DNA of 64,000 bases from Halomonas getboli (GTDB lineage: Bacteria; Pseudomonadota; Gammaproteobacteria; Pseudomonadales; Halomonadaceae). The stretch lies in NCBI RefSeq assembly GCF_023094245.1, contig NZ_JALMEW010000003.1:62001-126000 (forward strand), read 5' to 3'. Both the position numbers and the translations under genes were made by a program. This document shows positions 5,447 through 53,572 of this stretch, one piece after another (positions within the stretch are counted from its first letter, which is position 1; each line of letters opens with the position of its first letter). Under the pieces are notes generated by a model. That model was given only the letters and a program-made list of their open reading frames with translations, was not told the origin of the DNA and ran no database searches.

Positions 5447-8434
5447 ATGGCCCTGCCCGACGACTTCCTGCCGCTGGATGCCATTCCCGAACCGCTGGCG
5501 GCGCCGCTGCGACACGCCCGCGAGCGCCTGGCCACGGCCCTCGAGCAGGCCGACAATCTGGCCGAGATGCAGAAGCGCGAAGGTCCCGGCGAGAGCTGGT
5601 TGGCGCTGGCCCCGCACCGCCGCGAGCAGCTGGCGCGGGTGCTGGCGGTGTCGGAGTTCGTCGCCGAGACGCTGATCCGCCATCCCGACTGGCTGCCCCA
5701 GCTCGACGCTCTGGGCGAGCTGGACGCCGCCCCGGACGCTGACACCCTGAGCGAGACGCTCGCCGAGCGCCTCGAGGCCGCCGAGGACGAGGCGGCCATG
5801 CACGCCGCGGTGCGCCGCTTCCGCCAGGTGCGCATGCTGGGCATCGTGTGGCGCGACCTGACCCGCCCGCCGGGCATCGACATGTGGGCCACCGCCGGCG
5901 CCGTCACCCGGCTCGCCGAGACCTGCCTGGAGCAGGCGCTGGCCTGGCTCGAGCGCCACGTCGAGGCGCGCTGGGGCCGTCCCGGGCCGCGCGCCGACGG
6001 CAGCGAGCAGCGCCTGGTGGTGCTCGGCATGGGCAAGCTCGGCGCCGGCGAGCTCAATCTCTCCTCCGACATCGACCTGATCTTCGCCTTTCCCGAGAAG
6101 GGCGAGACGGTGGGCGGGCGCAAGACGCTCGAGCATCAGGAGTACTTCACCAAGATCGGCCAGAAGCTGATCGGCGCGCTGGACGCGGTGACCGCCGACG
6201 GCTTCGCCTTCCGCGTCGACATGCGCCTGCGCCCGCTGGGGGACGGTGGCCCGCTGGTCGGCAACTTCGCCTCGCTGGCCAGCTACTACCAGGACCAGGG
6301 CCGCGAGTGGGAGCGCTATGCCATGCTCAAGGCGCGCCCGGTGGCCGGCGACCTGGAGGCCGGCACCGAGCTGCTGGCGAGCATCCGGCCCTTCGTCTAT
6401 CGCCGCTACCTGGACTTCGGCGCCATCGAATCGCTGCGCGAGCTCAAGGCGATGATCAACCGCGAGGTGCGCCGCCGCGGCATGCAGGACAACATCAAGC
6501 TCGGCCCCGGCGGCATCCGCGAGGTGGAGTTCGTGGTCCAGGCTTTCCAGCTGATCCGCGGCGGTCGCGACACCGAGCTGCAGGTCACCTCGCTGAAGAC
6601 CGCCCTGGAGCGCCTGCCGGAGCTGGGCCTGCTGCCCAGTGAAGTGGTCGACGAGCTGATGCCCGATTACGTCTTCCTGCGCGACCTCGAGCACGCCATC
6701 CAGGCGCTGGAGGATCGCCAGACCCAGACCCTGCCGGCCGAGGAGCTGGCCCGCGAGCGGGTCGCCCTGGCGCTGGACATGGAGGACTGGCCGGCGCTGA
6801 TGGCGCGGCTCGACGAGGTGCGCGAGCGCGTCCGTCGCCACTTCGACGCGGTGATCGCCGACCCCGAAGAGGCCGACGGCGATGCGTCCGCCGCGGGCGG
6901 TGGCGGCATCGAGCTGGAGGAGTGGCGGGCGCTGTGGCGCGACGAGCCCGACGAGGAGGAGGCGCTGGCGCGGCTCGAGGAAGCGGGCTTCACCGACCCG
7001 ACCGCCGCTTACCGGCGCCTGCGCACGCTGCGCGACTCGCGTCAGGTGCAGGCCATGCAGCGCATCGGCTACGAGCGCCTGGAGGCGCTGATGCCGCTGC
7101 TGCTCGACGCCGCCGCGGCCAGCGAGGCGCCGGACGTGGCCCTGGAGCGGGTGCTGCCGCTGGTCGAGGCGGTGCTGCGGCGCACCGCCTACCTGGCGCT
7201 GCTGCGCGAGAATCCCGAGGCGCTGGAGCACCTGATGCACCTGTGCAGCGCCAGCCCCTGGATCGCCGAGCAGCTGGCCCGCCACCCGATCCTGCTCGAC
7301 GAGCTGCTGACCCCGGACACCCTCTACACGCCGGCCGACAAGGCGAGGCTGGCCGACGAGCTGCGCCAGGCCCTGGGGCGAATTCCCGAGGGCGACGAGG
7401 AGGCCGAGCTCGAGGCGCTGCGCGTGTTCAAGCACGCCCAGGTGCTGCACGTGGCGGCCTCCGACATCGCCGGCACCCGCCACCTGATGAAGGTCAGCGA
7501 CTATCTCACCTACATCGCCGAGGTGATCCTCGAGACGGTGTTGGCCATGGCCTGGAAGCACCTGACCCGCAAGCACGGCTTCCCGCTGCGCCGCGACGGC
7601 GAGCGCTGCGGCCAGGCGCCGGAATTCCTGATCATCGGCTACGGCAAGCTCGGCGGCATCGAGCTCGGCTACGGCTCCGACCTGGACCTGGTGTTCCTTC
7701 ACGACGGCGCCACCCGCGGCAGCACCGACGGCGATCGGCCGATCGACAACGCGGTGTTCTTCACCCGCCTCGGCCAGCGCATCATCCACCTGCTCACCGC
7801 GGTGACCCCGGCCGGCAGCCTCTACGAGGTCGACATGCGCCTGCGGCCCTCGGGCAACGCCGGACTGCTGGTGTCGAGCCTCGACGCCTTCGCCGACTAT
7901 CAGCGCCGCGAGGCCTGGACCTGGGAGCACCAGGCGCTGGTGCGGGCCCGGGTGGTGGCCGGCCACGATACCCTGGCCGAGGGCTTCGACGCCGTGCGCG
8001 GCGAGATCCTCGGCCGCGAGCGCGACGTCGAGGCGCTGCGCGAGGAGGTGGTGGCGATGCGTCACAAGATGCGCAAGCACCTGGCGAGCCAGGCCGAGGG
8101 CGACGACTTCGACCTCAAGCAGGATCCGGGCGGCATGGTCGACATCGAGTTCCTGTGCCAGTTCGCGGTGCTGGCGATGTCTCACGACAGCCCGGCGCTG
8201 CTGCAGTGGAGCGACAACATGCGCATCCTCGAGACCCTGGAGAGTAGCGGCCGGCTGCCCGCCGAGGACGGTGAGCGCCTGCGCGAGGCCTACCTGGCCT
8301 GCCGCACCGCGGCCCATCGCGCGGCCCTGACCGGCGATCCGGCCCGCGGCGACAACGCCGACTTCGCCACGCATCGCCAGGCCGTCATCGCGGTCTGGCA
8401 GCGGCTGCTCGAGCCGGCGTCAGGAGACGCCTGA
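5447..8434 (+). CDS. glnE: Bifunctional glutamine synthetase adenylyltransferase/deadenylase
   Basis: A 995-residue cytosolic enzyme controlling glutamine synthetase by adenylylation and deadenylylation in response to PII. It has two nucleotidyltransferase domains: the N-terminal adenylyl-removing domain with GMGKLGAGELNLSSDIDLIF near residue 195, and the C-terminal adenylylating domain with GYGKLGGIELGYGSDLDLVF near residue 730. The regulatory linker between them is intact and length is typical. A very long antisense open frame covers it but is only a consequence of high GC. The HAD gene converges 3 bases downstream. Confidence 0.96.
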   Translation: MALPDDFLPLDAIPEPLAAPLRHARERLATALEQADNLAEMQKREGPGESWLALAPHRREQLARVLAVSEFVAETLIRHPDWLPQLDALGELDAAPDADTLSETLAERLEAAEDEAAMHAAVRRFRQVRMLGIVWRDLTRPPGIDMWATAGAVTRLAETCLEQALAWLERHVEARWGRPGPRADGSEQRLVVLGMGKLGAGELNLSSDIDLIFAFPEKGETVGGRKTLEHQEYFTKIGQKLIGALDAVTADGFAFRVDMRLRPLGDGGPLVGNFASLASYYQDQGREWERYAMLKARPVAGDLEAGTELLASIRPFVYRRYLDFGAIESLRELKAMINREVRRRGMQDNIKLGPGGIREVEFVVQAFQLIRGGRDTELQVTSLKTALERLPELGLLPSEVVDELMPDYVFLRDLEHAIQALEDRQTQTLPAEELARERVALALDMEDWPALMARLDEVRERVRRHFDAVIADPEEADGDASAAGGGGIELEEWRALWRDEPDEEEALARLEEAGFTDPTAAYRRLRTLRDSRQVQAMQRIGYERLEALMPLLLDAAAASEAPDVALERVLPLVEAVLRRTAYLALLRENPEALEHLMHLCSASPWIAEQLARHPILLDELLTPDTLYTPADKARLADELRQALGRIPEGDEEAELEALRVFKHAQVLHVAASDIAGTRHLMKVSDYLTYIAEVILETVLAMAWKHLTRKHGFPLRRDGERCGQAPEFLIIGYGKLGGIELGYGSDLDLVFLHDGATRGSTDGDRPIDNAVFFTRLGQRIIHLLTAVTPAGSLYEVDMRLRPSGNAGLLVSSLDAFADYQRREAWTWEHQALVRARVVAGHDTLAEGFDAVRGEILGRERDVEALREEVVAMRHKMRKHLASQAEGDDFDLKQDPGGMVDIEFLCQFAVLAMSHDSPALLQWSDNMRILETLESSGRLPAEDGERLREAYLACRTAAHRAALTGDPARGDNADFATHRQAVIAVWQRLLEPASGDA

Positions 8435-8437
8435 GGT

Positions 8438-9112
8438 CTACGTCTGGCGATACCAGCTCGCGAGCGCGGCCTCCAGGCCGCGCAGGTCGAGGGTGGTGAC
8501 CACGTCCGTGGGGAAGGGGGAGGCCGCCGGATCGGCGGTGACACCGACGAAGCCCGTGGCATTGGAGCGGGCGGCGCGATAGTCGTTGTAGGAGTCGCCC
8601 ACCATGACCGTGCTTGGTGCCCGGAGGCCGTGCCGATTCAGCAGCTGGCCGAGCCCCGTCACCTTGTCCGGCGGCGAGCCGATCACCTCGTCGAAATGGC
8701 CGGCCAGGTCGCGCCGGGCGACGATCTCGCGCAGCTCGTGCTCGGGTGTGGCGGACAGCAGATAGATCGGCAGGCGACCGCGATGGCTTTCGAGGAATGC
8801 CAGGGCGCCGGGAATGGCGGGAGCGGCGAGAATGCGCTGCTCCACGCCCGCCTTGAAGCGTCGGCACAGCGCCTCGATGGACGCCTCGTCGGCCGGGCGG
8901 CCGAGGATCTGCGCTTCGATGTGGCGGAACTTGACCTCCCGGGGCTGGCCGCCGCGTCGGCCCAGATAGGCGCGGACGGCGCGGCGCAGGGGCTCGGGCT
9001 GGTCGTCGTAGAGGGCGGCGAAGGCCTCGCGCTTGAGGCTCGCCGAGTCGAGGATCACGCCGTCGAAGTCGAAGACCAGCACGCTGTCCGGATCGCAGAA
9101 GAAATCGCTCAC
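8438..9112 (-). CDS. HAD-superfamily hydrolase
   Basis: A 224-residue cytosolic phosphatase-type HAD protein. Motif I is VFDFDGVILDS (nucleophile Asp near residue 15), motif II is the SATPE region, and motif IV is MVGDSYNDYRAA. The helical cap is inserted after motif I, as in the phosphoglycolate phosphatase/beta-phosphoglucomutase group. The substrate is unknown. It stands alone, convergent with glnE and divergent from the quinate cluster. The operator pair at 9251 lies 139 bases upstream of its start, so it could respond to it, but the pair is more naturally assigned to the downstream genes. Confidence 0.8.
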   Translation of the reverse strand: MSDFFCDPDSVLVFDFDGVILDSASLKREAFAALYDDQPEPLRRAVRAYLGRRGGQPREVKFRHIEAQILGRPADEASIEALCRRFKAGVEQRILAAPAIPGALAFLESHRGRLPIYLLSATPEHELREIVARRDLAGHFDEVIGSPPDKVTGLGQLLNRHGLRAPSTVMVGDSYNDYRAARSNATGFVGVTADPAASPFPTDVVTTLDLRGLEAALASWYRQT

Positions 9113-9250
9113 GTTGGGCTCCGCTGCACGCGCACCACCGGGCCGCGTTTCCGTGGGGACGGGGCGCGTTTCAGGAATATCGGGAAGCCGTGGCTCGGGT
9201 GTGTCGCCGCCCCGTGCCGCGCCCGCCAGCCTGGGGCATCAGGATACTGG

Positions 9251-45740: not shown

Positions 45741-46862
45741 TCAGGGATGAGGCTGCTGCTGGGTGATGCAGTGGATGTTGCCGCCGCCGAGCAGGATCTC
45801 CCGGGCTGGCACGCCGACCACCCGCCGGGTCGGGAACAGGTCCTGGAGAATCGCTCGGGCCTCGTCGTCGCGCTCGGGGTCGAGCAGCGGCATCACCACC
45901 ACCGAGTTGCCGATGTAGAAGTTGACGTAGGAGCCGGCCATGCGGTCGCCGGGGCGCCGCGGATGCGAATGGCTCAGGCGGTCGATGCCGCTGGCCTCGT
46001 CCTCGCCGATATGCAGCGGGCCGGGCTGCGGCAGCCGGTGCACGGTCAGCGTGCGGCCGCGGGCGTCGGTGGCGCTCTCCAGCACGGCCAGCGCCTCCCG
46101 CGAGATGGCGTGCTGGGGATCGGCCTCGTCGTCGGGCCAGGTCAGGGCGACCTCGCCGGGCGCCACGAAGCAGGCCAGGTTGTCGACGTGGCCGTCGGTC
46201 TCGTCGAGATGGCAGCCGCGGGGCAGCCAGATCACCTTCTCGACGCCCAGGGTGTCGCACAGCACCCGCTCCATCTCGGCCCTGGAGAGGTCCGGGTTGC
46301 GGTTGGCGTTGAGCAGGCACTCCTCGGTGGTCAGCAGGGTGCCCTCGCCGTCCACGTGGATGGCGCCGCCTTCCAGCACCACTGGCGCCACGAAGCGCTC
46401 GATGCCGAGCATCTCGGCGATCTTGGTGCGGATGCGGCGGTCCTTGTCCCATGGGAAATAGAGCCCTCCCTGCAGCCCGCCCCAGGCGTTGAACTCCCAG
46501 TCGACCATGGCCAGGCGGCCGTCCGGATGGGTGAGGAAGGTCGGGCCCACGTCGCGCATCCAGGCGTCGTTGCTGGACAGCTCGACCACTCGCACGTGGT
46601 CGGGCAGCTGGACGCGGGCGTTCTCGTACTGCTCGTCGTTGACGCCGACGAACACCGTCTCGCTCTCGGCGATGGCCGTGGCGACCTCGACGAAGGCCTG
46701 CTGGGCCGGCTTGGCGCCGTAGCGCCAGGTGTCGGGGCGCTGCGGCCACAGCATCCAGCAGGCGTCATGGGGAGCGAATTCGGCGGGCATGGCGAAGCCC
46801 TGGGCCGCCGGGGTCTCGGGGGTGGCGCCCGTCGGGGCGCCCTGGGCAGAAGTCATGGTCAT
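45741..46862 (-). CDS. aguA: Agmatine deiminase
   Basis: A 373-residue cytosolic enzyme converting agmatine to N-carbamoylputrescine and ammonia. Family blocks are MPAEFAPHDACWMLWPQRPDTWR near residue 25, SSNDAWMRDVGPTFL near residue 99, LEGGAIHVDGEGTLLTTEECLLN, HVDN, and the C-terminal catalytic Cys in GGGNIHCITQQQP. The start at 46862 may equally be the ATG six bases later. It lies 8 bases after the NhaC-type gene on the same strand. No nitrilase-type aguB is adjacent; an M20 carbamoylase is found in the same cluster instead. Confidence 0.94.
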   Translation of the reverse strand: MTMTSAQGAPTGATPETPAAQGFAMPAEFAPHDACWMLWPQRPDTWRYGAKPAQQAFVEVATAIAESETVFVGVNDEQYENARVQLPDHVRVVELSSNDAWMRDVGPTFLTHPDGRLAMVDWEFNAWGGLQGGLYFPWDKDRRIRTKIAEMLGIERFVAPVVLEGGAIHVDGEGTLLTTEECLLNANRNPDLSRAEMERVLCDTLGVEKVIWLPRGCHLDETDGHVDNLACFVAPGEVALTWPDDEADPQHAISREALAVLESATDARGRTLTVHRLPQPGPLHIGEDEASGIDRLSHSHPRRPGDRMAGSYVNFYIGNSVVVMPLLDPERDDEARAILQDLFPTRRVVGVPAREILLGGGNIHCITQQQPHP

Positions 46863-46870
46863 CGCGGGTC

Positions 46871-48214
46871 TCACAGGTAACCGACCACCAGGAATATACC
46901 GGTGGCGAGGGCGGCGGCAATCAGTACATAGGGCAGCTGGGTCAGGGCGTGGGCCATGGGCGTGCAGCCGCTGCCCTGGGCCGAGAGCACGGTGGAGTCG
47001 CCGTAGAAGCAGGCGTGGCTGCCGAAGGCGCTGGCCGAGATCAGCGCGCCGACCACCAGCGGCATGTTGGCGTTCATGCTCTCGGCCAGCGGCAGCACGA
47101 TGGGCATGGCCACCGCGAACAGCCCCCAGAAGGAGCCGGTGGCGAAGGCCAGGAAGGCCATGGTGACGAACACCACCGCCGGCAGCAGGCCGGAGGTCAT
47201 CAGCGGCTCCACGGCCGCGATCACGAAATCGGTCAGTCCCAGAACGTCGTTGACCTCCTTGAGGGTGAAGCCGGCGACCAGGGTACCGAGCGGCATCAGC
47301 ATCGCCTTGAAACCGTCCAGGGCGGTGTCGAAGGTCTCGTGGAAGCTCAGCAGCCGCTGGGCGCCGATCAGCACCAGGGTCACGACCAGCGCCACGATGA
47401 CGCCGCGCAGGATATCGATGTCGAAGTACCAGGTGAAGAAGATCAGCGTGGCGATGGGCAGCAGGAAGTTCAGCAGGTGCGGGCGCGGCTTGTCCTCGTC
47501 CACCTCCAGGGTGCTGTCGTCGACGCCGGAGGGCAACGGCTGGCCGCCGGCGGCGCGAGCCTCGGCGGTCTTCATTGGCCCGATGTCGGGCATCCAGCCG
47601 AGCGCCACCAGCGGCACGATGGCGGCCGCGACCCAGGCATAGAACATGTAGGGGATGGCCTCGATGTACAGGCCCATGCCGTTGCCGGTGACGTTGTTCT
47701 CCTCCAGCAGGCCGGCGAAGAACACCGCCCAGGTGGAGAAGGGCACCAGGATGCACACCGGCGCCGCCGTGGAGTCGACGATGTAGGCCAGCTTCTCGCG
47801 GGAGATGCCGAAGCGGTCGGTGATCTTCTTCATCGAGGCGCTGATGGTCAGGGCGTTGAGATAGTCGTCGACGAAGATCACCAGGCCCAGCACCCAGGTG
47901 GTCAGCAGGCTGTGATGCTTGCGATGGATGCGGCGGGTCATCACGTCGCCGAAGCTGAGCACGCCGCCGGTCTTCACCAGCAGGGCGATCAGGCTGCCGA
48001 ACAGGCCGCAGACCAGGATGATCCAGGTCACGGTGTCGTTGCCCAGCACGCCGAGCAGGATGTCGGAGCCCTGGGTGATGACGGTGGTCGGGTCGACCAT
48101 CAGCAGGCCGACCACGGTGCCGGCCAGCAGCGATTCGATGGTGCGTCGGGTCAGCAGGGCCATGCCCAGCACCACCAAGGTGGGGATCAGGCTCCAGGCG
48201 CCATAGGTTTCCAT
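46871..48214 (-). CDS. NhaC-family antiporter
   Basis: A 447-residue permease with about 11-12 helices. Features are FVDDYLNALTISASMKKITD near residue 113, VDSTAAPVCILVPFSTWAV, and the C-terminal FWGLFAVAMPIVLPLAE and SHACFYGDSTVLSAQGSGC. The family includes Na+/H+ antiporters and amino-acid or amine exchangers. Tight coupling to aguA suggests that here it may move agmatine, putrescine or a related amine; that is inference. Confidence 0.87.
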   Translation of the reverse strand: METYGAWSLIPTLVVLGMALLTRRTIESLLAGTVVGLLMVDPTTVITQGSDILLGVLGNDTVTWIILVCGLFGSLIALLVKTGGVLSFGDVMTRRIHRKHHSLLTTWVLGLVIFVDDYLNALTISASMKKITDRFGISREKLAYIVDSTAAPVCILVPFSTWAVFFAGLLEENNVTGNGMGLYIEAIPYMFYAWVAAAIVPLVALGWMPDIGPMKTAEARAAGGQPLPSGVDDSTLEVDEDKPRPHLLNFLLPIATLIFFTWYFDIDILRGVIVALVVTLVLIGAQRLLSFHETFDTALDGFKAMLMPLGTLVAGFTLKEVNDVLGLTDFVIAAVEPLMTSGLLPAVVFVTMAFLAFATGSFWGLFAVAMPIVLPLAESMNANMPLVVGALISASAFGSHACFYGDSTVLSAQGSGCTPMAHALTQLPYVLIAAALATGIFLVVGYL

Positions 48215-48262
48215 GGGGACGTCTCTATTGTCGTTGTCGGTTTTGAGGCGGGAATCTAGCCC

Positions 48263-48288
48263 GCGCGGCGCCCGTTCGGGCGCCGCGC
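48263..48288 (-). other. Strong hairpin between the aminotransferase and NhaC genes
   Basis: A GC-rich near-perfect palindrome (GCGCGGCGCCC, loop GTTC, GGGCGCCGCGC) lies just beyond the aminotransferase stop. Without a T tract it may attenuate or stabilise rather than end transcription into the NhaC-aguA pair. Confidence 0.5.
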
Positions 48289-48295
48289 GGGGCGA

Positions 48296-49714
48296 TTACA
48301 GATAGCCGTCGGCCTTCAAGGACTCGGTGGCTGCGGTGAGCGCCTCGTCGAGAATCGCCACCGCGGTGTCGACGGTCTCGCGGCTCCAGATCAGGGTCGG
48401 CGAGATCACGTTCAGATGGCCCACCGGGCGGATGATCAGTCCGCGCTGCTGGGCCTCGAAGGCGATGCGGTCGCCGACTCGGGCCTCCACCGGCAGCAGT
48501 GCCTTGGTGTCCTTGTCGGCCACGTTCTCCAGGCACATCATGAAGTGGCTGCCCCGCACGTCGCCGACCGTTTCATGGTGCGACAGCGTCTTGAGCTGCT
48601 GCTCGAGGTAGGGGCCGACCTCGCGGACGTTCTCGCGGATCGCCTCACGCTCGATGATCTCGATGCTCTTGAGCGCCGCCGCGCAGCTCACCGGGTGGCC
48701 GGAGTAGGTGAAGCCGGTGCTCAGCACGCCGCCCTTGCCCTGCGGGGTGCCCAGCACCTCGTAGAGCTCGTCGGAGATCAGGGTGGCGCCCAGCGGGGCG
48801 TAGCCGGAGGACAGGCCCTTGGCGCAGTTGATGATGTCCGGCTGGGTCTCGAACACCGCCTCGGAGGCGAAGAAGTGTCCCAGGCGGCCGAAGCCGGTCA
48901 CCACCTCGTCGGCGATGTAGAGGATCTCGTGGGCGCGGCATACCGCCTGCATGCGCTTGTGATAGCCCTTCGGAGCCACCAGCACGCCGCCGGCGCCCAT
49001 GATCGGCTCGGCGATGAAGGCGGCGATGTTGTCGGCGCCGATGCGCTCGATCGTCTCCTCGAACTCCTGCACCAGGTGATCGCAGTACTCGGCCTCGCTC
49101 ATGCCTTCGGGCCGGCGATAGCAGTTGGCCTCGCTGAGATGGGTCACCAGGTGATCGAGGGTGTCGAAGTCCCAGTTGTTGCTCTCGATGCCGGTCAGGG
49201 TGGCGGCGAGATAGGTGGTGCCGTGATAGGCATTGTTGCGCGAGATGATGCGCTTCTTGTTCGGCTTGCCCAGGCGGTTGAAGTAGTAGTGCACCAGGCG
49301 GATGGTGGCGTCGTTGGCGGTCGAGCCGCCGCAGCTGTAGAAGACGTGGTTGAGGTGCGACGGTGCCAGCTCGGCCAGCTTGGCGGAGAGCTCGGCGGCC
49401 GGGGCGTTGGACAGGTTGTTGAAGGTCGAGAAGTAGGCCATGCGGGTGGCCTGGTCGGCCATGGCCTGGCCGATCTCGGCGCGGCCGTGGCCGACGTTGA
49501 CGCACCACAGCCCGGCGATGCCGTCGATGAAGCGGTTGCCCTTGGCATCCTGGACGTAGATGCCGTCACTGTCGGTGATCAGGTCGCAGCCTTCCTCGTG
49601 GAAGACGCTGAAGTCGGTGAAGGGGTGGATGAAGTGATCCTTGTCCTTCTGCCACAGGGCCTCGGCATCGAGGGCGGGAGTGTCGGACGTCGGGCGAGCG
49701 GTTGTTGTGGTCAT
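48296..49714 (-). CDS. Class III aminotransferase, putrescine:pyruvate type (SpuC-like)
   Basis: A 472-residue PLP enzyme. The PLP lysine is in NCAKGLSSGYAPLG near residue 290, preceded by the metal-like IADEVVTGFGR (Asp near residue 262), with FYSCGGSTANDATIRLVHYY near residue 125 and GLWCVNVGHGR at the N-terminal substrate site. The pattern matches SpuC-type transaminases that convert putrescine to 4-aminobutanal, although related enzymes use other omega-amines. An AGGAGG lies before the ATG. Divergent from the M20 hydrolase gene. Confidence 0.88.
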   Translation of the reverse strand: MTTTTARPTSDTPALDAEALWQKDKDHFIHPFTDFSVFHEEGCDLITDSDGIYVQDAKGNRFIDGIAGLWCVNVGHGRAEIGQAMADQATRMAYFSTFNNLSNAPAAELSAKLAELAPSHLNHVFYSCGGSTANDATIRLVHYYFNRLGKPNKKRIISRNNAYHGTTYLAATLTGIESNNWDFDTLDHLVTHLSEANCYRRPEGMSEAEYCDHLVQEFEETIERIGADNIAAFIAEPIMGAGGVLVAPKGYHKRMQAVCRAHEILYIADEVVTGFGRLGHFFASEAVFETQPDIINCAKGLSSGYAPLGATLISDELYEVLGTPQGKGGVLSTGFTYSGHPVSCAAALKSIEIIEREAIRENVREVGPYLEQQLKTLSHHETVGDVRGSHFMMCLENVADKDTKALLPVEARVGDRIAFEAQQRGLIIRPVGHLNVISPTLIWSRETVDTAVAILDEALTAATESLKADGYL

Positions 49715-49770
49715 GGCAATACCTCCTGTCGAGTGGAGGCCAGACTAGCCATCCCCGGCCAGGGGGGAAC

Positions 49771-49790
49771 ATATCCTGATTGGGGTATAT
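49771..49790. promoter_or_regulatory. Imperfect dyad in the divergent aminotransferase/hydrolase promoter
   Basis: ATATCCTGAT and TGGGGTATAT form an imperfect 20-bp inverted repeat in an otherwise GC-rich region. Its length and symmetry suit a LuxR/GerE-type operator, and a LuxR-type gene lies at the cluster end. Only a candidate. Confidence 0.35.
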
Positions 49791-49853
49791 CGGGGACTCG
49801 CGCCGTCCTCGTAAGGTCGCTGCCATGACGAACAACGACCAAAGAGGCGCACC

Positions 49854-51092
49854 ATGACGATTTCCATCGACGGCCAGCGGCTGTGGGACACGCTGATGGC
49901 CATGGCCGAGATCGGCCCCACCGCCAACGGCGGCAGCTGCCGCCTGGCGCTGACCCCCGAGGACGCCGCCGGACGGCGCCTGCTGCTCGACTGGTGCGAG
50001 GCGATCGGCTGCACCTGGCGGGTCGACCGGGTCGGCAACCTGTTCATCCGCCGCGCCGGCAGGCGCGACGACCTCGAGCCGGTAGCCACCGGCAGCCACC
50101 TGGACACCCAGCCCAAGGGCGGCCGCTTCGACGGCATCCTCGGCGTGCTGGCCGGGCTCGAGGTGTTCCGCAGCCTGCACGATCAGGGCATCGTCACCGA
50201 GCGCCCCCTCGAGCTGGTGGTGTGGACCAACGAGGAGGGCAGCCGCTTCGCCCCGGCGATGGTCGCCTCCGGCACCTATGCCGGCGAGTTCCCCGTCGAG
50301 GACACCCTGGCCCGCCGCGACGCCGACGGCGTGACCCTCGGCGAGGCCCTGGAGGCCTGCGGCTTCGCCGGCGACCTGCCGGTGGGCGAGCCGCGGCTGG
50401 ACGGCTTCTTCGAGCTGCACATCGAGCAGGGGCCGGTGCTCGAGGACGCCGGGGAATCCGTCGGCGTGGTCACCGGCGTGCAGGGCATGCGCTGGTTCGA
50501 CGTCACCTTCACCGGCCAGTCGGCCCATGCCGGCCCCACTCCGATGCGGCTGCGCCACGACGCCCTGGCGGCGGCGGCGCGCCTGATCGACCGCCTGCAG
50601 GCCCACGCCCTGGCCGACGCCAGCGGCGACACCAAGGTCACCTGCGGTTGCCTGGACATCGAGGCGGCCTCGCGCAACGTCATCCCCGGCGAGGTGCGCC
50701 TCACCGTCGACCTGCGCCACGTGGTGGAAACCGAGCTGGACGCCCTCCAGGCGCTGTTCGAGCGCGAGCTGGCCGCCGCCGGCGAGACCTTCGGCGTGGC
50801 CGTCTCCCAGCGGCGGATCTGGGCCTCGCCGGTGGTGGAGTTCGCCCCCGAGTGCATCGCCGCGGTGGAAGCCGCGACCCGGGCCCAGGCGGTGCCCTGG
50901 CGGCGCATGATGAGTGGCGCCGGGCATGACGCGGTCTACGTGTCCCGCGTCGCCCCCACGTCGATGATCTTCATCCCCTGCCGCGACGGCATCAGCCACA
51001 ACGAGGCCGAATACGCCACCCCGGAGCACTGCAGCCTGGGGGCCCAGGTGCTGTGCGACGCCATGGTCGCCCGCGCCGACCGTCCGGCCTGA
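49854..51092 (+). CDS. M20-family Zn hydrolase of the hydantoinase/carbamoylase type
   Basis: A 412-residue binuclear zinc amidohydrolase. Metal ligands lie in GSHLDTQPKGGRFDGILGV (His near residue 82, Asp near 93), WTNEEGSRF (Glu near 128), FFELHIEQGPVLE (His near 193) and the C-terminal GISHNEAEY. The dimerisation lid includes FTGQSAHAGPTPM. Relatives hydrolyse N-carbamoyl-beta-alanine, N-carbamoyl amino acids or allantoate. In a cluster with aguA, aminotransferase and aldehyde dehydrogenase, N-carbamoylputrescine is an attractive substrate. It is followed 15 bases later by the dehydrogenase gene. Confidence 0.87.
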   Translation: MTISIDGQRLWDTLMAMAEIGPTANGGSCRLALTPEDAAGRRLLLDWCEAIGCTWRVDRVGNLFIRRAGRRDDLEPVATGSHLDTQPKGGRFDGILGVLAGLEVFRSLHDQGIVTERPLELVVWTNEEGSRFAPAMVASGTYAGEFPVEDTLARRDADGVTLGEALEACGFAGDLPVGEPRLDGFFELHIEQGPVLEDAGESVGVVTGVQGMRWFDVTFTGQSAHAGPTPMRLRHDALAAAARLIDRLQAHALADASGDTKVTCGCLDIEAASRNVIPGEVRLTVDLRHVVETELDALQALFERELAAAGETFGVAVSQRRIWASPVVEFAPECIAAVEAATRAQAVPWRRMMSGAGHDAVYVSRVAPTSMIFIPCRDGISHNEAEYATPEHCSLGAQVLCDAMVARADRPA

Positions 51093-51107
51093 TCACGGGA
51101 GCTTCCT

Positions 51108-52628
51108 ATGACCGAACATCGCCGAATTCCCCAGACCCGCGCCGACTGGCAGGCGCTGGCCGCCTCGCTGGTCGAGCAAGGCCTCGAGAGCCGCGCCTAT
51201 ATTGACGACGCCTTCGTCGACGCCGCCGATGGCGCGACCCTGACCACGATCAATCCGGCCACCGGCGAGACGCTTGCCGAGGTGGCGAGCTGCGACGCCG
51301 CCGACGCCGAGGCCGCGGTGGCGGCCGCCCGCCGCGCCTTCGACGCCGGCGAGTGGTCGCGCCTGGCCCCGGCCGGCCGCAAGGCCGTGCTGCTGCGCCT
51401 GGCCGAGCTGATGGAGGCCCACCGGCACGAGCTGGCGCTGCTCGACACCCTGGACATGGGCAAGCCCGTTTCCAGCTCGCTGGGCGACATGGCCGGTGCC
51501 ATCGGCTGCCTGCGCCACCACGCCGAGTCGATCGACAAGCTCTACGGCGAGGTCGCGCCCACCGGCAACGATGCCCTGGGCCTGGTGCTGCGCGAGCCGC
51601 TGGGGGTGGTGGCCTCCATCGTGCCGTGGAACTTCCCGCTGATGATGACCGCCTGGAAGATCGCCCCGGCGCTGGCCGCCGGCAACAGCGTCATCTTGAA
51701 GCCCTCGGAGAAGTCGCCGCTGTCGGCGCTGCGCCTGGCCGGCCTGGCCCGCGAGGCCGGCCTGCCGCGCGGCGTGTTCCAGGTGCTGCCGGGCTTCGGC
51801 CACACCGTGGGCAAGGCGCTGGCGCTGTCGATGGACGTCGACTGCCTGGCCTTCACCGGCTCCACCGGGGTCGGCAAGCAGCTGATGCAGTACGCCGGCC
51901 AGTCGAACCTCAAGAAGGTGTTCCTGGAGTGCGGCGGCAAGAGCCCGAACCTGGTGTTCGCCGACTGCAAGGATCTCGATAAGGTGGCCGAGCACGCCGC
52001 CGGGGCGATCTTCCACAACCAGGGCGAGGTGTGCATCGCCGGCTCGCGCCTGCTGGTCGAGAATTCGATCCGCGAGGCCTTCGTCGACAAGGTGCTGGCC
52101 GCCGCCGAGCGCATGCAGCCCGGCGACCCGCTGGACCCGGACAGTTTCATGGGCGCGATGGTCGATCAGGCCCAGTACGAGCGGGTGCTCGACTATATCC
52201 GCCGCGGCGTGGAGGAGGGCGCCACCCTGCGTGCCGGCGGCGAGGCCACCGCGATCGAGGGCAAGGGGCTGTTTATTCCGCCGACGGTGTTCGACGGCGT
52301 CACCGAGGCCATGGCGATCGGCCGCGAGGAGATCTTCGGCCCGGTGCTGGCGGTGTTCGGCTTCGACAGCGAGGACGAGGCGGTGCGGCTGGCCAACGAC
52401 AGCGACTACGGCCTGGCGGCCGGGCTGTGGAGCCAGGACATCGATCGCATCATGCGCGTCACGCGCCGGCTGCGCTCGGGGCAGGTGTTCGTCAACAACT
52501 GGGCGGACATGGACCAGACGGTGCCCTTCGGCGGGGTCAAGCAGTCAGGCAACGGGCGCGACAAGTCCCACCACTCGCTGGAGGAGTATTCCGATCTCAA
52601 GAGCGTGTGGATGACGCTCGCGATGTGA
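51108..52628 (+). CDS. NAD(P)-dependent aldehyde dehydrogenase (PuuC/KauB-like)
   Basis: A 506-residue cytosolic dehydrogenase. Motifs are VPWNFPLMMTAWKIAPALAAGN near residue 170, FTGSTGVGKQLM, catalytic Glu in LECGGKSPN near residue 280, and catalytic Cys in NQGEVCIAGSR near residue 313. Relatives oxidise 4-aminobutanal, gamma-glutamyl-aminobutyraldehyde or other omega-amino aldehydes. It would complete conversion of putrescine to 4-aminobutyrate after the aminotransferase. It ends before a bidirectional terminator. Confidence 0.93.
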   Translation: MTEHRRIPQTRADWQALAASLVEQGLESRAYIDDAFVDAADGATLTTINPATGETLAEVASCDAADAEAAVAAARRAFDAGEWSRLAPAGRKAVLLRLAELMEAHRHELALLDTLDMGKPVSSSLGDMAGAIGCLRHHAESIDKLYGEVAPTGNDALGLVLREPLGVVASIVPWNFPLMMTAWKIAPALAAGNSVILKPSEKSPLSALRLAGLAREAGLPRGVFQVLPGFGHTVGKALALSMDVDCLAFTGSTGVGKQLMQYAGQSNLKKVFLECGGKSPNLVFADCKDLDKVAEHAAGAIFHNQGEVCIAGSRLLVENSIREAFVDKVLAAAERMQPGDPLDPDSFMGAMVDQAQYERVLDYIRRGVEEGATLRAGGEATAIEGKGLFIPPTVFDGVTEAMAIGREEIFGPVLAVFGFDSEDEAVRLANDSDYGLAAGLWSQDIDRIMRVTRRLRSGQVFVNNWADMDQTVPFGGVKQSGNGRDKSHHSLEEYSDLKSVWMTLAM

Positions 52629-52720: not shown

Positions 52721-53572
52721 TCAGCCGCCCTGCTGGCGCGAGACCAGCGCCACGTGGTCGAGGAACAGTCGGAATAGCTGGGACTGGCTTGAGACGTCCA
52801 GGCGCTGGTAGATGTGCTTGCGGTGGACCTTGACGGTGCCGTCGCTGATGTCGAGCTCGCGGGCCGCCGACTTGGTGGAATGGCCCGCCAGCAGCAGCCG
52901 GACGATCTCGCGCTCGCGCTGGGTCAGGGCCTCCTGGCCGAAGCTGTCGAAGGCCGCCTCCACCGGCTCGCGCTCCTCGAGCCGGGCCTGGAAACCGTGC
53001 CCCTGCCACTTCCAGTACTCCCCCAGCAGGGCGTCCACCACCGGGGCGATGTGGCGCAGCGCCAGCATGGCGCGGCGCGTGACCCGAGGGCCGTCGCCGC
53101 GAAAGCCCAGCGATACCACCATCACCACGTCGGCATCGACCCGGGCGAACAGGCCGATCTCGTCGGAGAGCCCTAGGGCGCGGTAGTAGTGATGGTAATA
53201 GTCGCTGCTCTCGAAGCGGTCCGGCGCCAGCTCGCGCAGCCGGCAGGCGCCGTGGTCGAGCCCGTCATGGACGGCCTTGAAGAAGGGGTCGAGCAGGTAG
53301 GCCTGGCTCAGATAGCGTTCGATACCCTGCTCGCGACGCCCCGGGGGATAGTTGTCGTGAATCAGCAGTGGCCGATGACGCCCCTTGTAGGTGTTGATCA
53401 GGATGGTGTCGAAGTCGAGCAGCTCGTGCAGGGTCTGCTCGAGCAGCGTCGGCAGGCCGGTGCTGCCGGCACTGCGGATCAGCTGGGCCAGGCGCTGGTG
53501 CCAGGCCTGGCTGGCGGCGGTGGCGAGGGAGTCGGCGGAGATCACGTGGGGCGGGTCCTGACGGCAGATCAT
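52721..53572 (-). CDS. LuxR-family transcriptional regulator
   Basis: A 283-residue regulator, counting from the ATG at 53572 (MICRQDPPHV), which has CGAGGAAC upstream; longer in-frame starts up to 53680 are possible. The N-terminal domain (about 20-200) is a GAF-like sensory region without an obvious acyl-homoserine-lactone signature. The C-terminal GerE helix-turn-helix (about 215-275; LTQREREIVRLLLAGHSTK and ISDGTVKVHRKHIYQRL) is clear. Its place at the end of the agmatine/putrescine cluster suggests it controls those genes. Confidence 0.82.
   Translation of the reverse strand: MICRQDPPHVISADSLATAASQAWHQRLAQLIRSAGSTGLPTLLEQTLHELLDFDTILINTYKGRHRPLLIHDNYPPGRREQGIERYLSQAYLLDPFFKAVHDGLDHGACRLRELAPDRFESSDYYHHYYRALGLSDEIGLFARVDADVVMVVSLGFRGDGPRVTRRAMLALRHIAPVVDALLGEYWKWQGHGFQARLEEREPVEAAFDSFGQEALTQREREIVRLLLAGHSTKSAARELDISDGTVKVHRKHIYQRLDVSSQSQLFRLFLDHVALVSRQQGG

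Follow-up and report, generated by a model that had tools for sequence, protein, structure and literature searches.

Agmatine degradation through AguA and AguB starts with the conversion of agmatine to N-carbamoylputrescine, from which AguB releases putrescine. AguY, an amidase homologue that is non-homologous to AguB, also acts as an N-carbamoylputrescine amidohydrolase and was shown to make putrescine (PMC12283126). In the Puu pathway (PuuA, PuuB or SpuC, PuuC and PuuD), an N-masked diamine is deaminated, oxidized by a PuuC-type enzyme and unmasked last to gamma-aminobutyric acid (GABA). Transaminases that take agmatine and a route via 4-guanidinobutanoate have also been described (PMC7268258). 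SpuC is reported to deaminate both putrescine and gamma-glutamylputrescine, and KauB to be a 4-guanidinobutyraldehyde dehydrogenase (PMC10606097). Here we report on a gene cluster at positions 45741-52628 of a 64,000-nucleotide stretch of Halomonas getboli (contig NZ_JALMEW010000003.1, positions 62,001 to 126,000; the whole stretch is hereafter called the window), in which aguA is accompanied by genes for an aminotransferase, an aldehyde dehydrogenase and an M20-family carbamoylase. On the strength of sequence comparison, the cluster probably takes agmatine to GABA through intermediates that retain the carbamoyl group as a mask, the M20 enzyme acting last. This route is preferred because of a carboxylate-binding Arg in the M20 enzyme, the distribution of AguB-type genes and the presence of a separate putrescine locus.

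The cluster and its conservation

Profile searches confirmed the coordinates and gene types given in a preliminary description of this DNA (AguA, class III aminotransferase, M20 enzyme and aldehyde dehydrogenase). They also revealed two genes absent from it, an NhaC-family gene inside the interval and a luxR-type gene just outside. The genes form two divergent operons whose meeting point is at about 49.8 kb:

45741..46862, minus strand: aguA, agmatine deiminase, 373 amino acids; TIGR03380, 571.4 bits against a cut-off of 381.8
46871..48214, minus strand: NhaC-family Na+/H+ antiporter-type transporter; PF03553, 94.9 bits; recurs in the cluster
48296..49714, minus strand: class III aminotransferase, PRK07036 group; NF005447, 724.3 bits, cut-off 618
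49769..49792, no strand: conserved imperfect dyad of 24 bp in the divergent intergenic region; 20-bp core and orthologue survey
49854..51092, plus strand: M20 carbamoylase, 412 amino acids; NF006769, 577.2 bits, cut-off 452
51108..52628, plus strand: aldehyde dehydrogenase, PuuC/KauB-like; NF007352 (PuuC), 659.5 bits, below the cut-off of 850
52721..53572, minus strand: LuxR-type (GerE) transcriptional regulator; PF00196, 61.2 bits; recurs beside the cluster (an alternative longer TTG frame reaches 53680)

The dehydrogenase starts 15 bases behind the M20 gene, and PuuC is its best family among those listed. The M20 protein passes the cut-off of the hydantoinase/carbamoylase family TIGR01879 (419.2 bits, cut-off 204) and misses that of the N-carbamyl-L-glutamate amidohydrolase ErtE (NF058540; 361.7 bits, cut-off 520). 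The families listed for it are all of the M20 type, the nitrilase-type AguB family TIGR03381 not being among them, and NCBIfam labels this branch only as allantoate amidohydrolase or Zn-dependent hydrolase. A role in allantoate breakdown was considered and rejected, given that the cut-off of allantoate deiminase AllC (TIGR03176) was missed (231.7 against 597.75 bits). The aminotransferase had been described as putrescine-type; it is indeed a class III aminotransferase, but the narrower label is imprecise, as it scores 485.7 bits against PRK07480 (the putrescine aminotransferase group, SpuC/6gwi type), below the cut-off of 510.

In the proposed route, the NhaC-family transporter, likely an importer or exchanger of agmatine or one of its derivatives, would import the substrate. 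AguA would then convert agmatine to N-carbamoylputrescine, the standard reaction of its family, and the aminotransferase would deaminate the free amino end to give N-carbamoyl-4-aminobutanal. Subsequently, the PuuC/KauB-type dehydrogenase would yield N-carbamoyl-GABA (4-ureidobutyrate), which the M20 enzyme would hydrolyse to GABA, CO2 and ammonia, as a relative reportedly does. The conserved site between the operons would be where the LuxR-type protein acts, and putrescine for growth would come from a separate aguA2-aguB2 pair. That all this amounts to a dedicated, co-regulated Halomonadaceae pathway, bypassing free putrescine via carbamoyl-masked intermediates and with the M20 enzyme as 4-ureidobutyrate hydrolase, we hold to be somewhat better than an even chance.

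Among the 201 family genomes searched, 57 have an M20 match of at least 65% identity, and an AguA orthologue lies within 20 kb of it in 54 of these. The pairing of AguA with M20 gave a Fisher p of about 1e-26 on presence and absence, with relatedness uncorrected. The test used 63 M20 matches of at least 59% identity and 77 AguA genomes of at least 74%, leaving out second AguA copies and the six of 83 AguA genomes with only 51-59% copies. The clustering of the two genes is not due to chance. The order aguA-nhaC-aminotransferase/M20-dehydrogenase-luxR recurs in named genomes of Halomonas, Onishia, Chromohalobacter and Billgrantia, and the same gene order without a regulator match is found in Modicisalibacter; the M20 protein of Halomonas maura is 95% identical to that of the window. 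The aminotransferase is divergent upstream of M20 in 44 of 46 distinct M20 orthologues. Only 1.5 kb of upstream sequence is available at the remaining two, and for one of them (L038) a longer locus, L170, places the aminotransferase 6.6 kb away. The dehydrogenase directly follows M20 in 32 of the 41 loci with enough sequence. In an M20 tree of 68 rows, all cluster members fall into one Halomonadaceae group (54 rows, support 100/100), eight rows of which are non-cluster paralogues.

A derived clade of M20 paralogues (58-63%) was observed at L073, L074, L075, L198, L199 and L202, from which the cluster is absent. At L198, L199 and L202 the paralogue is followed by a second hydrolase-like and a symporter-like gene, as judged by eye.

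The 24-bp near-palindromic block at 49769-49792 sits in an otherwise variable intergenic region. The window contains a single match to the 20-bp core of this block, where 0 are expected, and the block was found within 350 bp upstream of M20 in all 46 distinct orthologous loci. Exact 6-base dyads widely common to the loci were not found, and the site came instead from common 8-mers; the site matrix derives from eight variants of the site, and the loci that supplied them are themselves part of the survey. As a control, 157 loci (1,776,090 bases) that have neither a close M20 nor a close aminotransferase gave one strong match (L182) and four weak ones. No match was detected in the putrescine locus L171, the aguA2-aguB2 locus L172 or the solitary aguA loci L175, L178, L181 and L183-L185. 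At L203:6775-10895, and also at L071, the divergent aminotransferase and M20 genes are about 4 kb apart, with one copy of the site on each side. Given this distribution, the two operons look like one regulon. The block is likely a regulator-binding site common to both, and the LuxR-type neighbour is the natural candidate, predicted regulator. Since the genes occur together throughout Halomonadaceae and the operons have a conserved 24-bp site between them, M20 belongs to agmatine metabolism, and the earlier assignment of this enzyme to agmatine degradation is borne out by the conserved linkage and the shared site. The divergent aminotransferase-M20 arrangement and the constant presence of the site also support the masked route.

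Probable substrate of the M20 enzyme and probable source of putrescine

The metal ligands of the M20 enzyme, which we take from family motifs to be H82, D93, E128, H189 and H382, are identical in all 133 relatives compared, of which 45 reach 65% identity and 88 do not, in agreement with the preliminary description, according to which all were present. In the related enzyme RrCbetaAA (PDB 8C46), Arg291 is reported to form a salt bridge with the ligand carboxylate, with Gln196, Glu131 and His385 at the carbamoyl end; its reported activity on N-carbamoyl-gamma-aminobutyric acid exceeds that on the alpha isomer more than 1.5-fold (PMC10952681). R288, Q192, E127 and H382 of the window M20 align with these ligand-binding residues at a constant numbering offset of six, and all four are unchanged in the 133 relatives. 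The nearest solved chain is 5thw (465.1 bits), which holds N-carbamoyl-beta-alanine (PMC10952681), and the solved homologues nearby comprise N-carbamoyl-beta-alanine enzymes and several without an assigned substrate. N-carbamoyl-GABA ends in a carboxylate and N-carbamoylputrescine in an amine, and therefore the anatomy of the M20 enzyme favours N-carbamoyl-GABA; direct hydrolysis of N-carbamoylputrescine appears unlikely. No M20 carbamoylase other than that of the window was found in the genome, and neither was a dihydropyrimidinase (best partial match 36.2 bits). A role in pyrimidine degradation is thus unlikely and was rejected.

It had been noted that no nitrilase-type AguB accompanies the cluster. 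This is true of the window, but the genome search for aguB proposed in the preliminary description retrieved an AguB-type nitrilase gene at G000:C11:263809-264672, which overlaps a second, divergent deiminase-like gene (aguA2-aguB2). The nitrilase matches TIGR03381 over its full length with 261.6 bits, below the cut-off of 410.25, and this is the only family listed at E<=1e-60. Its best solved chain is 6mg6, a carbon-nitrogen hydrolase without an assigned substrate (319.1 bits). The second-best is the N-carbamoylputrescine amidohydrolase of Medicago, 5h8i (209.7 bits), with which it aligns at the Cys that is Ser in chain 5h8k. The best solved chain for the second deiminase-like protein is the unnamed 1zbr, and it also matches 3hvm, named agmatine deiminase. 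With presence defined as a match at E<=1e-60, AguB was found in 184 of the 201 family genomes, and no cluster-bearing genome of the 54 is without it; among the 17 others, G146 and G158 have a more distant nitrilase beside an AguA. The genome carries speA, and no agmatinase was found in it, the sole arginase-superfamily match being hutG. The aguA2-aguB2 pair is likely an agmatine-to-putrescine route, and with this probable source of putrescine the cluster need not supply the AguB step. At L187, L188 and L189, from other family members, a 51-58% AguA was observed beside a 38-41% AguB-type nitrilase, with no close M20.

Putrescine itself appears to have its own locus (L171), with puuA-like and puuD-like genes, a SpuC-type putrescine aminotransferase and puuC. 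The aminotransferase of this locus corresponds clearly to 6gwi, a putrescine aminotransferase of solved structure (941 bits), and a relative at L066, 85% identical to the putrescine aminotransferase-like protein of the genome, scores 749.6 bits against PRK07480. The cluster aminotransferase is 39% identical to the putrescine aminotransferase type of the genome. The closest solved chain to the window dehydrogenase is KauB 6b4r (626.9 bits), and the near chains include a gamma-glutamyl-gamma-aminobutyraldehyde dehydrogenase. At the DNA level the gene is 98.26% identical over 1494 bp to puuC of the putrescine locus (L171:12850-14343, contig G000:C11). Of 16 cluster genomes searched at E<=1e-190, ten gave two puuC copies, three gave one and three gave none, and in every two-copy genome one copy is beside M20 and the other beside a SpuC-type aminotransferase. 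In five of these ten, the M20-side copy has its nearest relative, among all copies compared, in the partner from the same genome; this does not hold for the remaining five. The two positions are mixed in the dehydrogenase tree (7 changes against a shuffled mean of 7.8, with 204 of 500 shuffles as low). Together these patterns are read as indicating that the copies exchange sequence (gene conversion) in at least some lineages, so they probably carry out the same chemistry on N-substituted 4-aminobutanals. A dehydrogenase that is a twin of puuC and exchanges sequence with it fits an enzyme for N-masked 4-aminobutanals.

The three genomes giving no dehydrogenase match are those of L058, L059 and L072. 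Their draft contigs extend past the M20 match by 283, 175 and 471 bases, respectively, and break off at the dehydrogenase start, as expected if near-identical copies confuse assembly.

Weighing the order of steps

According to the preliminary description, the M20 enzyme fills a missing AguB step by turning N-carbamoylputrescine into putrescine, from which the cluster aminotransferase and dehydrogenase then give GABA. The enzyme is a carbamoylase linked to aguA, and AguY shows that replacement at this very step has a precedent, by a different, unrelated protein. However, an AguB-type gene is present in each of the 54 cluster genomes, the carboxylate-binding Arg has been kept throughout the M20 relatives, and putrescine has a separate locus with its own aminotransferase in the same genome, so we regard this model as unlikely and the step as probably not missing at the level of the genome. 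A generalist hydrolase of carbamoyl-amino acids (N-carbamoyl-beta-alanine or N-carbamoyl-L-amino acids), with aguA as a mere neighbour, would suit the breadth of RrCbetaAA and the solved homologues, some of which are N-carbamoyl-beta-alanine enzymes and several unassigned. The tight linkage, the common site, the single Halomonadaceae clade and the failure to find a dihydropyrimidinase in the genome make it very improbable.

The least probable alternative in our estimate keeps M20 last but begins with the guanidino group in place: the aminotransferase would act on agmatine, the dehydrogenase would yield 4-guanidinobutyrate and a deiminase would turn this into 4-ureidobutyrate. We know of no deiminase for the carboxylate 4-guanidinobutyrate, and AguA scores well above the equivalog cut-off for agmatine deiminase (571.4 against 381.8 bits). 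Such an order would be in line with the agmatine-accepting transaminases and 4-guanidinobutyraldehyde dehydrogenases that have been described (PMC7268258, PMC10606097), as well as with the position of KauB as nearest to the cluster dehydrogenase among solved chains.

The preferred carbamoyl-masked route has points against it as well. The carboxylate role of R288 is a putative one, based on a homologue that shares about 45% identity across 303 aligned columns, and because the M20 family is broad, the Arg indicates a carboxylated substrate, not which one. The role of the cluster aminotransferase is a proposal, the PRK07036 group carrying no assigned substrate in NCBIfam. In the putrescine locus, the gene names puuA-like (gamma-glutamylputrescine synthetase) and puuD-like (gamma-glutamyl-GABA hydrolase) are putative, resting on matches below curated cut-offs. 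Furthermore, the dehydrogenase is not directly behind M20 in 9 of the 41 loci with room for it, and L186 has the regulator, aminotransferase, transporter and AguA, with M20 and the dehydrogenase absent there. Finally, G203, G303 and G295, which belong to the 57 genomes having a close M20, are without an AguA orthologue, and therefore the pathway input may not always come from the cluster AguA. The rest of the module (transporter, aminotransferase, M20, dehydrogenase and regulator) is retained in G203 and G303, whereas G295 (L197:10362-11365) has a deletion remnant in which the aminotransferase start runs straight into the AguA end.

AguA without a clustered M20 was found in 22 further genomes. 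Eleven such solitary-AguA loci were fetched (L175-L185), nine of which have no other module gene; L180 has a dehydrogenase match of 35%, and L182 is a remnant with aguA and an 87% dehydrogenase. The cluster variants alone do not separate the two step orders. In a phylum draw of 398 genomes, aminotransferase matches occurred in 11 genomes at 13 places, two of them clusters; nine of the 11 non-cluster places, outside Halomonadaceae, were inspected (L161-L169), and neither AguA nor M20 was found there.

A number of side observations concern related loci. The full module minus the AguA orthologue is seen at L195 and L196, where the NhaC-type transporter is more distantly related (50-51%). A second AguA (55-56% identical) lies on the dehydrogenase side of the cluster at L191:9399-14970 and also near the cluster in L190, L192 and L193; in L191 it adjoins an Amidohydro_3 protein, a LysR regulator and an MFS transporter, with no AguB match nearby. 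Solitary aguA is divergent from a gene of similar sequence, as judged by eye, at L175:7319-7954, L178, L181 and L183, and the gene at L175 is a member of the phosphatidylethanolamine-binding-protein family. In Pandoraea terrigena (L080), an AguA (40%, 773-1828) and an M20 (55%, 8001-9218) lie about 6 kb apart, possibly an independent association.

Comparison with known systems

We recognized no description of a carbamoyl-masked route or of bacterial 4-ureidobutyrate degradation in the portions of open-licence PMC full text consulted, an absence that is not proof. Names for 4-ureidobutyrate turn up there in connection with metabolomics, with bromophenols from algae, with a transcarbamylase review that deals with another compound and with human beta-ureidopropionase, an enzyme that accommodates 4-ureidobutyric acid (PMC10741476). 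The masked route is not described in the available parts of PMC4581275, which concerns another ureido compound, or in those of PMC10741476, PMC4016543 and PMC8437039, and the term "N-carbamoylputrescine aminotransferase" encountered in figure legends is a name for AguB.

If the proposal is correct, the cluster represents a third masked-diamine route beside the glutamyl and guanidino ones and a new fate of agmatine. Agmatine could be burnt without disturbing the putrescine pool, because the genes for making and for degrading putrescine are located outside the cluster, elsewhere in the genome. A concrete function would also be provided for this M20 branch and for the PRK07036 aminotransferase group.

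The cluster shares with the AguA-AguB pathway the first step, from agmatine to N-carbamoylputrescine. It differs in being without AguB, the AguB-type gene lying elsewhere with a second deiminase-like gene, and in the proposed bypass of putrescine. Like the AguA-AguY system, it has a non-AguB hydrolase gene near aguA, but AguY is a different protein, whereas the M20 enzyme, a metallohydrolase, should require a carboxylate. RrCbetaAA belongs to the same family, has the same metal and ligand residues including the Arg and is active on N-carbamoyl-GABA; it was described for pyrimidine degradation, and an agmatine context is not seen in the available text (PMC10952681). In the 4-guanidinobutyrate route, a masked putrescine is likewise transaminated, oxidized and unmasked to GABA, with the difference that the guanidino mask is removed by a ureohydrolase (PMC7268258), while the cluster would deiminate first and carry a ureido mask. 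In the Puu pathway, which follows the same sequence of deamination, PuuC-type oxidation and final unmasking, the mask is a glutamyl group added with ATP and removed by a PuuD-type hydrolase, whereas in the cluster it would be the carbamoyl group left by AguA, removed by an M20 metallohydrolase. Known enzyme families would thus be arranged in a masked-diamine logic in which the mask and the unmasking enzyme are new.

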